Translations under genes and position numbers: made by a program
From: Corallococcus sp. EGB
GTDB lineage: Bacteria; Myxococcota; Myxococcia; Myxococcales; Myxococcaceae
Assembly (NCBI RefSeq): GCF_019968905.1
Contig: NZ_CP079946.1
Span: 9,149,356 to 9,213,355 of the forward strand
Length of the DNA: 64,000 nt
Direction of reading: 5' to 3'
Shown: positions 2,707 to 53,014 of the stretch, in pieces
Position numbering within the stretch: the first letter of the stretch is position 1
How the letters are laid out: every line of letters begins with the position of its first letter
Notes under the pieces: generated by a model
The model's database searches: none
The model's input: only the letters and a program-made list of their open reading frames with translations
What the model was told of the DNA's origin: nothing

Positions 2707-3453
2707 ATGCAGCTGAAGGACCTGAAGATCATCGTCACCGGCGGCGCGCAGGGCATGGGCGCGCACTTCGCCCAGCGCATCCACGAGGCGGGCGGCCAGG
2801 TGGCCGTTGGCGACGTCAACGAGGAGAAGCTCGCGGCGCTGCCGGCGGGCATCCACCGCCGCAAGCTGGACGTGTCCAACGAGCAGGACGTCACGGACTT
2901 CGTGCAGTGGGCGCACGGCGCCATGGGCGGCCTCAACGGCCTCATCAACAACGCGGGCATCCTGCGCGACGCGCTGCTCGTGAAGAAGGACCGCACCACC
3001 GGCCAGGTGAAGAAGCTGTCCACGGCGGATTGGAACGCCGTCATCGGCGTGAACCTCACCGGCGCCACGCTGATGGTGCGCGAGGTCGTCACCAAGATGG
3101 TGGAGACGGACCAGCGCCCCGGCGTCATCGTGAACATGTCGTCCATCGCGCGGCACGGCAACCGCGGCCAGTCCAACTACGTGTCCGCCAAGGCCGCGCT
3201 CGCCGCCAACACCGTCACCTGGTCGCGCGAGTTCGCGCCGTTCGGCATCCGCGTGGGCGCCATCGCCCCGGGCATGATTGAAACGCCCATGACGCAGGGC
3301 ATGAACCAGAAGGCCCGCGACGCGCTGGTGGCCGCCATCCCGGTGGGCCGCATCGGCGAGCCGGAGGACATCTGGCAGGCCGTGAAGTTCATCGTGGAGT
3401 GCGACTACTTCAACGGCCGCACCATCGACGTGGACGGCGGCCACAACTTCTAG
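2707..3453 (+). CDS. Short-chain dehydrogenase/reductase (FabG-like)
   Basis: 248 residues, typical for classical SDRs. The nucleotide-binding motif TGGAQGMG is at 11-18, NNAG at 81-84, the catalytic serine in NMSS (145-146), and the Y-x3-K pair at Y158 and K162. The end, GRTIDVDGGHNF, is the usual SDR C-terminal tail. ATG 2707 follows an AGGAGAGG ribosome site; a longer in-frame extension upstream is non-conserved in style. It most likely reduces a keto group with NAD(P)H, for example 3-oxoacyl chains, but the substrate is not determined. It stands alone, separated from the aminotransferase by a hairpin. Confidence 0.9.
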   Translation: MQLKDLKIIVTGGAQGMGAHFAQRIHEAGGQVAVGDVNEEKLAALPAGIHRRKLDVSNEQDVTDFVQWAHGAMGGLNGLINNAGILRDALLVKKDRTTGQVKKLSTADWNAVIGVNLTGATLMVREVVTKMVETDQRPGVIVNMSSIARHGNRGQSNYVSAKAALAANTVTWSREFAPFGIRVGAIAPGMIETPMTQGMNQKARDALVAAIPVGRIGEPEDIWQAVKFIVECDYFNGRTIDVDGGHNF

Positions 3454-3477
3454 GCCGCTCCACCCGCGCCCCGGACC

Positions 3478-3867
3478 TCAGGCGCTCTTGCGCTTCCGGG
3501 GCGCGGCCCGCGTGGACTTCACGCCCGCGGCCTTGGGCGCCGCGGGCTTCACGTCCACCCAGCGCTCCGCCCACCGGCCCAGCTCGTCGATGACCTTCCA
3601 GAACGCCTGCCCCTTCTCCGTCAGGCGGTACTCGGAGCGGATGGGCGGGCCCGGGTCGACGTGGCGCTCGATGATGCCCTCCGCCTCCAGCTCCTTGAGC
3701 CGCTCCGACAGGACGCGCTCGCTGATGGTGCCGATGCGCTCCGTCAGCTCCCCGAAGCGGCACGGCCCGTCCATCAGGATGCGCAGGATGATGCCCGTCC
3801 AGCGCCGGCCCAACAGCTCGGCCGCCGTCAGGAACCGGGCGCACAGCGGGCGCAGGTCGTCATGCAT
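3478..3867 (-). CDS. HxlR-family winged-helix regulator
   Basis: About 129 residues. The HxlR signature is clear: C-x-R-F-x-x-A-x-x-L-L-G-R-R-W-T near the N-terminus, then RFGELTERIGTISERVLSERLKELEAEGI and the wing EYRLTEKGQAFW. The single N-terminal cysteine is in the position used for thiol sensing in this family. Start M at 3867 gives MHDDLRPLC with a GGAG upstream; a start at 3918 would add 17 glycine-rich residues. The C-terminal tail is rich in lysine and arginine. It is divergent from the RutE-like reductase, a classic HxlR arrangement, so control of that gene is likely. Confidence 0.9.
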   Translation of the reverse strand: MHDDLRPLCARFLTAAELLGRRWTGIILRILMDGPCRFGELTERIGTISERVLSERLKELEAEGIIERHVDPGPPIRSEYRLTEKGQAFWKVIDELGRWAERWVDVKPAAPKAAGVKSTRAAPRKRKSA

Positions 3868-49810: not shown

Positions 49811-49962
49811 GGCCTGAAGGTAGGGATGACGCCCGCTCCGTCACGCGCGGGTGCGCCTGTCCGCCTGCCGGGCGGGGAAGGAGTGCCGTCCCGGGCGTTC
49901 GCCTCGCGAACCCGCGCAAGGAAAGCCGTGCGCGGAGGGGCGTGGCGAGGCACGTTTGGGGG

Positions 49963-51675
49963 ATGGCTTCGGGAATTCCTGTCGACCCTGACTTCGACCT
50001 GCTGGTGGCGGTCCTGCCGCCTCCGCTCCAGGAGGCGGTGCGGGCACTGCCCCAGGTGGAGTTGCTGGAAGTGGTGATGGACCTGGGGCGGCCTCCGGAG
50101 GCGCGGCTGGTGCACGGCGTGGCGCGCCTTTCGGAAGCGCCCGTGGAACAGGACGCGCTCCAGGCGGTGCTCTCCCGCGTTGGCGAGGTGGGCGGCGACA
50201 ACCGCGCGGGCATCGAACGCACGCTCCACCGCGTGTCGGTCATCCGCAACCGTCAGGGCCGCGTGGTGGGGCTCACGCTGCGCGTGGGGCGCGCCATCCA
50301 GGGCACCATCGACATGCTGCGCGACCTGGTGGAGTCCGGGCGCAACCTGCTGCTGCTCGGGCGGCCGGGCGTGGGCAAGACGACGAAGCTGCGCGAGGTG
50401 GCGCGCGTGCTCGCGGACACGCTGGGCAAGCGCGTGATGGTGGTGGACACCTCCAACGAGATTGGCGGCGACGGGGACATCCCGCATCCGGGCATTGGCG
50501 GCGCGCGGCGCATGCAGGTGAGCCGGCCGGACCGCCAGCATGACGTGATGATCGAGGCGGTGGAGAACCACATGCCCGAGGCCATCGTGGTGGACGAGAT
50601 TGGCACCGCCGCGGAGGCCGCCGCCGCGCGCACCATCGCGGAGCGCGGCGTGCAACTGGTGGCCACGGCGCACGGCAACACGCTGGAGAACCTGGTGTTG
50701 AACCCCACGCTGTCGGACCTGGTGGGCGGCGTGCAGACGGTCACGCTGAGCGACGACGAGGCCCGGCGCCGGGGCACGCAGAAGACGGTCACGGAGCGCA
50801 AGGGCACGCCCACGTTCGACATCGTGGTGGAGATGGTGAGCCGCGACGAGGTGCGCGTGCACCGCGACACGGGCGGCGCGGTGGACCGGCTGCTCACGGG
50901 CGCGGAGGTGGGCGGCGAGAAGCGGCGGCAGCAGGACGGCGCCGTGCACGTGGAGGCCGCGCCCGAGGTGGTGGAGGCCACGCCCCCGGGAGGCCATGTG
51001 CCCCGGGGGACGCCCGCGCTGGGAGCCCCCCGGCCCGGCCCCACGCGCATCGCCGCGCACTCGGTGAGCCGCGAGCTGTTGGAGCGCGTGCTGCGCGACC
51101 TGCCGATAGAAGCCGTGGTGGTGGGCCGCCCGGAGAACGCGGAGGTGGTGCTCACGCTGCGGAGCCGCGCGAACTCACCTCGGCTGCGCCGCGCGGCGGA
51201 GCGCGTGGGCGCGCGGGTGGTGGCCATCAAGCGCAACAGCTCCTCGGAGATCCGCCGCGCGCTGCGCACGGAGTTCCACCTGCTGGAGGGCGTGGATCCC
51301 GCGGATGTGCACGCCGCGGTCGCGGATGCGGAGGAGGGCATCCGGCGAGTGCTCGAGGAGGGCATCCACCTGCCGCTGGCGCCGCGCCCGTCGCGCCTGC
51401 GGAAGGTGCAGCACACCCTGGTCGTGAAGAACCACCTGGAGGCCGTGAGCGTGGGCAGCGAGCCCCTGCGCCACCTGGTCATCTACCCGCTGGGCACCGC
51501 CCTCACGGAAGTCTCCAGCACCGAGCCGGAGGACGAGGACGCGCCAGAGCCGGAGGATGACGACCTGGAGGATGACGGCGTCCTGTCCGCGGATGAAGAA
51601 GCCGGGGATGACGAGGACTCGGATCCAGCGGCGCCTGCCCCGGCTGAAGGTGAGGCTCAGCCCTCTCGGAACTGA
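49963..51675 (+). CDS. SpoIIIAA-like AAA ATPase with R3H-type C-terminal domain
   Basis: 570 residues. N-terminal ATPase resembling SpoIIIAA and plastid Ycf45: P-loop LLGRPGVGKTTKLREVARVL (133-140), EIGGDGDIPHPGIGGARRMQ, Walker B EAIVVDEIGTAAEAAAARTI and AHGNTLENLVLNPTLSDLVGG. The C-terminal region (about 350-480) looks like a single-strand nucleic-acid-binding R3H module, followed by a highly acidic tail (STEPEDEDAPEPEDDDLEDD). Family function is not settled. I choose ATG 49963; GTG 49942 is possible. The gene is followed 34 bases after its stop by the palindrome array. Confidence 0.8.
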   Translation: MASGIPVDPDFDLLVAVLPPPLQEAVRALPQVELLEVVMDLGRPPEARLVHGVARLSEAPVEQDALQAVLSRVGEVGGDNRAGIERTLHRVSVIRNRQGRVVGLTLRVGRAIQGTIDMLRDLVESGRNLLLLGRPGVGKTTKLREVARVLADTLGKRVMVVDTSNEIGGDGDIPHPGIGGARRMQVSRPDRQHDVMIEAVENHMPEAIVVDEIGTAAEAAAARTIAERGVQLVATAHGNTLENLVLNPTLSDLVGGVQTVTLSDDEARRRGTQKTVTERKGTPTFDIVVEMVSRDEVRVHRDTGGAVDRLLTGAEVGGEKRRQQDGAVHVEAAPEVVEATPPGGHVPRGTPALGAPRPGPTRIAAHSVSRELLERVLRDLPIEAVVVGRPENAEVVLTLRSRANSPRLRRAAERVGARVVAIKRNSSSEIRRALRTEFHLLEGVDPADVHAAVADAEEGIRRVLEEGIHLPLAPRPSRLRKVQHTLVVKNHLEAVSVGSEPLRHLVIYPLGTALTEVSSTEPEDEDAPEPEDDDLEDDGVLSADEEAGDDEDSDPAAPAPAEGEAQPSRN

Positions 51676-51708
51676 GCGCTGCCCCCTGCCGGCGGCGGAC
51701 CCCGCGGA

Positions 51709-52019
51709 CCGGTCCGACTGTCGGATAGGGTTGGACCTGGGCCGGCGGGAGGCGGACCGCTCCAACTTGTCCGACTGTCGGACAAGTTTTGGAGCAGGGC
51801 TGGCGGGAGGCGGGCCACGTGAACCGGTCCGACTGTCGGACAGGTTTTGGCCCGGAGCCGGGCGAGATGCGAACCGGGTGAACCGGTCCGACTGTCGGAC
51901 AGGTTTTGGACCAAGCCGGGCGGACGATGGCCCTACCCGAACCGGTCCGACTGTCGGACAGGTTTGGACCAGGGCCGGCGGGAGGCGGACCGCTCCAACT
52001 TGTCCGACTGTCGGACAGG
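51709..52019. repeat. Six-copy array of a 15-bp odd-centred palindrome, 57-59 bp apart
   Basis: The core GTCCGACTGTCGGAC (perfect 7-1-7 palindrome) occurs at centres 51719 (last base T), 51776, 51834, 51893, 51952 and 52009. Flanks are CCGG/CAGG in copies 3-5 and CTTG/CAAG or CTTG/CAGG in copies 2 and 6; copy 2 is self-complementary over 21 bases. Each core is followed by AGGTTTTGG or close. Inter-repeat segments are themselves related (GGACC..GGGCCGGCGGGAGGCGG), and copies 1-2 and 5-6 are near-identical units, so the array grew by duplication. It fills most of the 532-bp gap after the R3H ATPase gene. Function unknown. Confidence 0.9.
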
Positions 52020-52160
52020 TTTGGACCAGTCGGGCCCGGACAGGGGCGCCATCGAGTGCGCAGCACGCTGCACATGCCGCATGAGGTCATGGGTGCCCCT
52101 TTCCCTGGGGATTCGCGGGGTTGTGGGGGGCATGACGGTTGCTGAAGGCCCGGGGTCCGG

Positions 52161-52207: not shown

Positions 52208-53014
52208 ATGCGCCGCATCGCCTGCCTTGCCCTCGCCGCCCTTGCCACCGCCTGTGGGGACAACCTGCCCACCCCGGAGGAGATCGACGACGCGAAGGCC
52301 CGTGTGGAACGCCTGGCGGCCTCCACGCACCAGGTGCGCGGCGCATTGGAGATGCTGGGCCTGATGCCCGTGTACACGTGCGGCGAACCCCGGCGCTCGT
52401 TCCTGAATCAGGCCGTGGCAGGACTGTCCTCCACGGTGGCCTGCGCGACCGCCCGCGTGGAGGCCGTGGACGCCGTCACCGACGCCGTCGTCGTGTCCTT
52501 CCCGTCCAGCGGCTGTGACGTGCACGGCCTGCGCTTCACCGGACGCGCGGTGCTGGAGTACCGCGGCGGCGAGGACCTGCTGGAGATGCAGGCGGACCTG
52601 CGCGAGCTGGCCGTGGACGGCCGGACCCTCCAGGCGAAGGTGGGCTACGGCACGTGTTCGGATGAGACACGCCTGTTCGCGGACGTCGAGGGCCAGGTCC
52701 CAGGCCGCGAGGAGCACTCCTTCCACATCAACAGTCGCGTCGGGAAGCGCGACGGATTGCCCATCATCGGCGGCACGACGCTGGTCTTCGATGGTCCGGG
52801 AGAATTGAAGGGGCCGAACGGCACGGACCGCATCACGCTCACGTCGCTGCTCTATGAAGTGGGCAACTACCTGCCCAAGGAAGGCACGGCCCTGGTGGAG
52901 ACCGCGGACGGACACCGCCTGAGCCTCTCGTTCCAGCCCGTGCTGTGGCGCGTGGGCAAGGTGGAGGTCACCGTGGATGACAAGGACCCGGTGACCGTGC
53001 CCGTCGTGCGCTGA
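52208..53014 (+). CDS. Hypothetical lipoprotein
   Basis: 268 residues beginning MRRIACLALAALATACGD with a lipobox (LATAC), so it is membrane anchored. The mature protein is beta-rich with paired cysteines (YTCGEP, VACAT, SSGCDVHG, GTCSDE) and motifs EEHSFHINSRVGKRDGLPI and TLTSLLYEVGNYLPKEGTA. No known family recognised. It converges on hflX with a 3-base gap between stop codons. The longer upstream frame is rejected because it would spoil the signal peptide. Confidence 0.78.
   Translation: MRRIACLALAALATACGDNLPTPEEIDDAKARVERLAASTHQVRGALEMLGLMPVYTCGEPRRSFLNQAVAGLSSTVACATARVEAVDAVTDAVVVSFPSSGCDVHGLRFTGRAVLEYRGGEDLLEMQADLRELAVDGRTLQAKVGYGTCSDETRLFADVEGQVPGREEHSFHINSRVGKRDGLPIIGGTTLVFDGPGELKGPNGTDRITLTSLLYEVGNYLPKEGTALVETADGHRLSLSFQPVLWRVGKVEVTVDDKDPVTVPVVR

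Follow-up and report, generated by a model that had tools for sequence, protein, structure and literature searches.

Directly downstream of a SpoIIIAA-like ATPase gene, the window (the whole 64,000-nucleotide stretch of DNA that was analysed, from Corallococcus, a predatory soil bacterium) carries six closely similar palindromes in near-regular succession, which raises the question of what such an array is and how it came to lie there. All six elements proposed by a first-pass annotation were recovered where it had placed them, at centres 51719, 51776, 51834, 51893, 51952 and 52009, and the core starts (Table 1) give the same intervals of 57, 58, 59, 59 and 57 bp. Each repeat is a palindrome of odd length, AAACCTGTCCGAC-T-GTCGGACAGGTTT, whose core GTCCGACTGTCGGAC is exact in five of the six copies, copy 1 having T as its final base and not C. 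Allowing up to two mismatches, the window holds 12 matches (six places, both strands), as against a mean of 0.32 and a maximum of 2 in 100 shuffles. The segment spanning copies 1 and 2 (51705–51789) is 94% identical to that spanning copies 5 and 6 (51938–52022), a block duplicate; the inter-repeat segments are thus related, as had been argued when a CRISPR array was set aside.

Table 1. Coordinates of the palindrome array and its neighbours in the window.
Feature	Position	Strand	Remarks
Whole array	51676..52040	.	outer limits approximate
Copy 1, 27-bp odd palindrome	51706..51732	+	core 51712-51726, one mismatch
Copy 2	51763..51789	+	core 51769-51783; matched arms AACTTG/CAAGTT
Copy 3	51821..51847	+	core 51827-51841
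Copy 4	51880..51906	+	core 51886-51900
Copy 5	51939..51965	+	core 51945-51959
Copy 6	51996..52022	+	core 52002-52016
SpoIIIAA-like ATPase gene, neighbour	49942..51675	+	TIGR02858, 66.9 bits, below its cut-off
Downstream neighbour gene	52208..53014	+	lipoprotein-like start (by eye)

The array occupies the space between the stop codon of the ATPase gene and sequence shared with congeners that have no array. The ATPase also gave a weak Jag/EloR match at 468–515, and its R3H label follows the first-pass annotation; the gene on the far side, which found no match in an NCBIfam search, is the downstream gene of this locus in congeners with kept gene order. When copies were counted at up to two core mismatches across 16 genomes of the genus, the R3H locus held six in the window's own genome (G000, a single contig of 9.43 Mb) and six in G069, three in G058, two in each of G059 and G063, and one in G061; an array was not found there in the other 10. 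The next gene comes after the R3H gene with no array between them in a more distant clade of seven genomes, a different sequence follows in G057 and G060 (in the latter, at L020, insertion-sequence-like DNA after the R3H stop codon), and in G070 one copy stops after GTCCGACTG, with the contig ending soon after. Altered cores, GTCCGACTGTCCTAC and GTCCTACTGTCGGAC, occur at the locus in G069 (L023), G058 (L017) and G063 (L021), and GTCCGACTGTCCTAC is common to three neighbouring copies in G069. The gene is therefore incidental to the array, as the annotation had suspected from the sequence, and a tie between the two is ruled out also by the 49 other clusters located elsewhere in G000.

A search of that genome for the exact 15-mer with a free centre returned 128 places, with none for the reversed control, so that the repeat does not occur at chance frequency. 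The 124 exact cores centred on A or T group into 50 clusters, and the loci fetched around these (3 kb on each side) contain 259 copies when degenerate ones are included. Two forms can be told apart. The P form, GTCCGACTGTCGGAC, accounts for the 124 copies; the D form, GTCCGACTGTCCGAC, differs by a G-to-C change at +4, by which its right half repeats the left directly and not in inverted form, and numbers 45 copies in the fetched loci, 58 in the whole genome and 80 in G059. A single exact core is present in 22 of the 50 clusters, several arrays are of mixed orientation, and neighbouring copies lie mostly about 36–40, 48–54, 57–60 or 65–73 bp apart. According to composition-based gene prediction, 47 of the 50 clusters fall outside genes and, among the 48 with both neighbours called, 19 lie between convergent, 22 between tandem and 7 between divergent genes. 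The window array is an ordinary member of this dispersed repeat family.

Several loci have features of their own. Eight of the 50 clusters are packed into 0.25 Mb, at 1.78–2.03 Mb. The arrays at L055 (G000 4360800; copies at 2943–3630 of the locus) and L051 (G000 2696701) fall within genes that were identified by eye, on the basis of their translations, as NRPS and PKS; there all intervals are multiples of three (11/11, compared with 69/191 elsewhere), and the array in the NRPS gene encodes in-frame 19-residue repeats of the type EPVGQSDRF. Two copies of a 1,277-bp insertion sequence, 94% identical to each other, are inserted in or beside arrays at L049 (3759–5035 of the locus) and L054 (3394–4670), each flanked by a 9-bp direct repeat; the L049 copy matches an IS4 family model.

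We then compared orthologous loci, placed by a joined DNA query assembled from stretches of 48 of the 50 loci in G000, which located 38 in G059 and 40 in G069; presence and absence were read at loci with anchors, which several loci lacked. Copy number varies widely: across G000, G059 and G069 it runs 1/8/7 at L032 and 1/4/5 at L078, and L066 has four copies in G000 and seven in G059. L071 is empty in both relatives, where 15 bp stand in place of the roughly 1,050 bp of G000, and G069 has further empty sites at L053, L049, L043, L033 and L069. Together with the block duplicate in the window, these differences indicate that arrays appear, disappear and are remodelled by duplication of blocks. 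The first-pass annotation had proposed that the core is held more firmly than its surroundings. Seven comparisons, drawn from three single-copy loci that are shared, show 0–3 base differences in the 27-bp core and 50–78% identity in the adjoining 40 bp on either side, so that drift of the core as fast as that of the spacers was not seen; since these loci were picked for a found core, the contrast is biased towards conservation and represents an upper bound.

Within the order, the exact 15-mer is found in 24 of 145 genomes, a scan that diverged versions would escape: all 16 sampled genomes of the genus hold it (4–158 places), as do five of six in a sister genus (0–19 places) and three other genomes of the order. 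In a scan with named sources, the 80 stretches listed, out of at least 120, comprise 76 from Corallococcus, one from Hyalangium versicolor and three from a Myxococcaceae MAG. A phage origin was rejected, a 21-mer having no match in viral_contigs. Among the matches listed in searches of the open-licence literature for the sequence, for repeat families of the group and for replication-oriented palindromes, we found no description of the family.

Of the roles originally offered for the array, a mobile REP-like family fits best, given 50 mostly intergenic clusters and their presence or absence at orthologous sites. We conclude, with a probability of roughly 60% for the explanation including its inferred steps, that a dispersed palindromic repeat of the REP/MITE class, itself non-autonomous, has been amplified locally to give the array; the best reading of the family is one of the palindromic-repeat or MITE kind without a REP transposase.

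The sister genus offers a lead to how such repeats may arise from an IS630-type transposon. There the palindrome lies at the centre of a dispersed imperfect-palindrome element of about 160 bp with ends AAGCCAG...CTGGCTT, four copies of which in G043 share 95–99% identity across about 157 bp and break off sharply into unrelated surroundings. A query made of both element ends gave 35 matches in G043, 14 in G048 and 7 in G047, and none in G000 and G059 at E values up to 1. G043 also carries, at L353 (2258–3071), an 814-bp IS630-type relic bounded by 33-nt inverted ends that are 97% complementary; its transposase is truncated and scores 99.4 bits against a cut-off of 100, the relic is not intact, and the palindrome is not inside it. 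The 33-nt ends of the relic are 87% identical to the ends of the 160-bp repeats, and by virtue of these shared inverted ends the sister-genus element is, by structure, a MITE. IS630 elements duplicate a TA target; in the sister-genus element TA is a common flank but not a universal one, standing beside the right end of 8 of 12 G043 copies and the left end of 5 of 12, as counted by eye.

From these observations, we infer that the family would have spread in the past through transposition in trans, and that ends of the sister-genus type may have been lost, or never been present, in Corallococcus, where we saw neither a transposase nor a transposition event for the family. Slippage at replication and unequal recombination among copies would now account for most change in copy number.

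The central base of the palindrome reveals a further property of the family. Replichores were defined by dnaA, which is found at the beginning of the G000 and G059 sequences and near 2.03 Mb in that of G069, and by a terminus assumed to lie opposite. Of 23 clusters on the right replichore of G000, 18 have the T centre on the ‘−’ strand, and on the left 19 of 23 have it on the ‘+’ strand, four ties being left out; put differently, among the 46 clusters in which one strand predominates, 37 have the A form on the leading-sense strand (p=4e-5). The association persists when ties are assigned to their first copy (40/50 clusters, p=2.4e-5), when ties and the dense stretch at 1.78–2.03 Mb are both excluded (31/40), and in clusters with a single exact core (18/22). 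Gene direction was a poorer guide: in tandem-gene contexts without ties the T strand fits the replichore in 17 of 19 clusters and the gene strand in 11 of 19 (20/22 and 12/22 with ties). The D forms of G059, a second species, agree with the replichore in 24 of 28 clusters (39/41 and 37/39 copies). Arrays in the fetched loci, each scored on the replichores of its own genome, agree in 44 of 57 cases in G000, 27 of 32 in G059 and 20 of 23 in G069, the latter two counts not being independent, since the loci are orthologous to G000 clusters and share their ancestry. In the sister genus, dnaA was sought in the opening 6 kb of G043, G047 and G048 and not found.

We asked whether the arrays themselves are oriented, using a conserved outer module, ...GCGCCGCCGACGGGG...TTCTCACCTTCTCATCC, which occurs at one array end only and which we call end A. 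It is present in 30 arrays of G000, G059 and G069 (16 of them in G000), and a recognisable version is absent from 84 of 116 arrays. Of 15 arrays that have both end A and a predominant strand, 12 agree with the replichore in their T strand (p=0.04), and the side on which end A lies shows no association with the replichore (p=1); end A is on the 3′ side of the T strand in eight arrays and on the 5′ side in seven. On this small sample, the asymmetry seems to be a property of each palindrome and not of the inserted array, and array polarity was discarded as the source of the bias. Base-composition skew was rejected as well, the intergenic AT skew being weak (0.02–0.04) and of opposite sign. Thus the central base, together with the G-to-C change at +4, takes its orientation from the replichore and not from gene direction nor, apparently, from the polarity of the array.

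This orientation led us to entertain, tentatively and as a possibility short of an even chance, that the replication machinery edits the palindromes where they stand, fork direction setting the centre base and one half-site independently of the orientation in which an array was inserted and of transcription. If so, the palindromes would constitute a natural record of replication direction, or sites from which a replication-coupled protein reads direction. The cause that we favour, on slender grounds, is strand-biased template switching. Two studies describe template switching that perfects quasipalindromes and is strand-biased in E. coli (PMC7202029, PMC6357072). In Corallococcus, palindrome-associated switching of this kind during replication might re-template the arms and flip the centre in place, and such flipping could allow one centre orientation to accumulate; a symmetric flip alone would lead to 50:50, so that an additional difference in rate between the two loop states must be assumed. 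At L075 the orthologous single copy in G059 shows both a flipped centre and a joint change of the two outer arm bases, which is the signature expected of a template switch but is a single flip, and one towards the minority orientation. The lack of outer-arm covariation in G000 speaks against template switching.

The main rival for the polarity is a protein that reads direction. On this explanation, which is unlikely but the most serious of those that remain, the palindrome would be a candidate DNA target for a protein dimer (a nucleoid, segregation or regulatory factor), clustered by selection, with its centre giving a direction that the replication or segregation machinery may read. A dyad core that is nearly invariant and far above chance is what such a site would present, as are outer arms that vary independently in the manner of half-sites, arm bases that shift symmetrically between genera, and a replichore polarity independent of genes. 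The distribution of the family argues otherwise: a single genus spans 4 to 158 copies, the exact 15-mer is missing from 121 of 145 genomes in the order, and whole arrays are missing at orthologous loci.

The arms themselves deserve closer inspection, as the earlier annotation had taken the paired change in copy 2 as a sign that symmetry is kept. The change is real, with both arms altered to AACTTG...CAAGTT, but a matched T/A pair at ±9 occurs in only one of 124 exact genomic copies, namely this one, and copies 3–6 vary unpaired: copies 3–5 have G at −8 opposite A at +8, and copy 6 is changed in its left arm alone. Because positions within 7 of the centre are fixed by the search, covariation can be read only at ±8 to ±12, and there the paired counts in the 124 copies lie near independence (at ±9, for example, 75 against 80.9 expected); with one copy per cluster, the largest excess is at ±8 (47 pairs against 43.3 expected). 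Between genera the arms do shift symmetrically, −8/+8 being mostly T-A in Corallococcus and G-C in the 12 G043 copies shown, as would be expected of a dyad site or of a founder change.

These outer arms without covariation make a kept RNA hairpin unlikely, and we regard as improbable the proposal that the palindromes are hairpins or bidirectional terminators maintained at the 3′ ends of genes. The predicted fold of copy 2 is strong (z of −5.9 and −6.8 on the two strands), and convergent contexts outnumber divergent ones by 19 to 7 (n=48). Against this stand, besides the arms at the testable positions, the 58 copies in G000 and 80 in G059 of a D form that disturbs the predicted stem, an orientation that ignores gene direction, the occurrence of arrays within the NRPS and PKS genes, and a search of Rfam in which no family exceeded its gathering score, the four matches all being to microRNA families and far below theirs.

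Quite improbable, too, is that orientation is set on insertion, by a REP-type or IS200/IS605-type transposase acting on single-stranded lagging template. Replichore polarity would be its natural outcome, and the precedent of IS608 and ISDra2, which insert into the lagging-strand template, is documented (PMC6006769). The corresponding transposase domain, PF01797, however, is found in none of the 16 genomes of the genus, G000 included, and only the centre is oriented by replichore, array end A not being so. Least credible of all is the annealing of a retron-type ssDNA to the lagging template, converting cores genome-wide: the polarity fits a T-form donor and G000 encodes two reverse transcriptases (PF00078) that read as retron-type, but within 1.5 kb on either side of both matches the palindrome was not found, the best similarity there having 3–4 mismatches in 15 and lying in coding sequence, and retron msDNA was dismissed as the donor. 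The reverse transcriptases are located at L161 (946–2394; G000 9.25 Mb), where a long inverted repeat lies upstream of the gene, and at L162 (1264–2628, minus strand; G000 2.04 Mb).

The array and its family can finally be set beside known systems. REP and BIME sequences are short intergenic palindromes of high copy number that form dimers and tandem clusters (PMC3733652). The Corallococcus palindromes resemble them in occupying many intergenic places (47 of 50 clusters outside predicted genes) and differ in having no GTAG or CGTC tag beside the palindrome in a position profile of 124 copies, and in the absence from all 16 genus genomes, the window's own among them, of the Y1 transposase PF01797, a search that gave matches in 5 of 14 control genomes; REP elements mobilized by a RAYT were excluded on this last ground. 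RUP and Correia elements are MITEs derived from IS630 transposons. The sister-genus form of about 160 bp, with inverted ends of some 30 bp shared with an IS630-type relic, is alike; the window array differs from them in being without these ends (neither G000 nor G059 gave a match at E up to 1), and the Corallococcus arrays repeat the central palindrome only. ERIC is, by description, likewise a long imperfect intergenic palindrome with no known mover; we know of no array formation of this kind in ERIC.

CRISPR arrays share regularly spaced palindromic repeats, and differ in that the spacers here are related, which rules CRISPR out, in that 22 of 50 clusters have one exact core, and in that several arrays are mixed in orientation. 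KOPS are replication-oriented sites, and the orientation of the palindrome centre follows the replichore in like manner, the difference being that the palindrome is not conserved across the family, the exact 15-mer occurring in 24 of 145 genomes of the order. To our knowledge, it is new for a palindrome to carry at its centre a one-base asymmetry that tracks replication direction when the array around it does not. This replichore-oriented centre is the part of the family worth following: the genus has many sequenced species, and through this polarity either strand-biased template switching or a polar site of replication could be observed from sequence alone.
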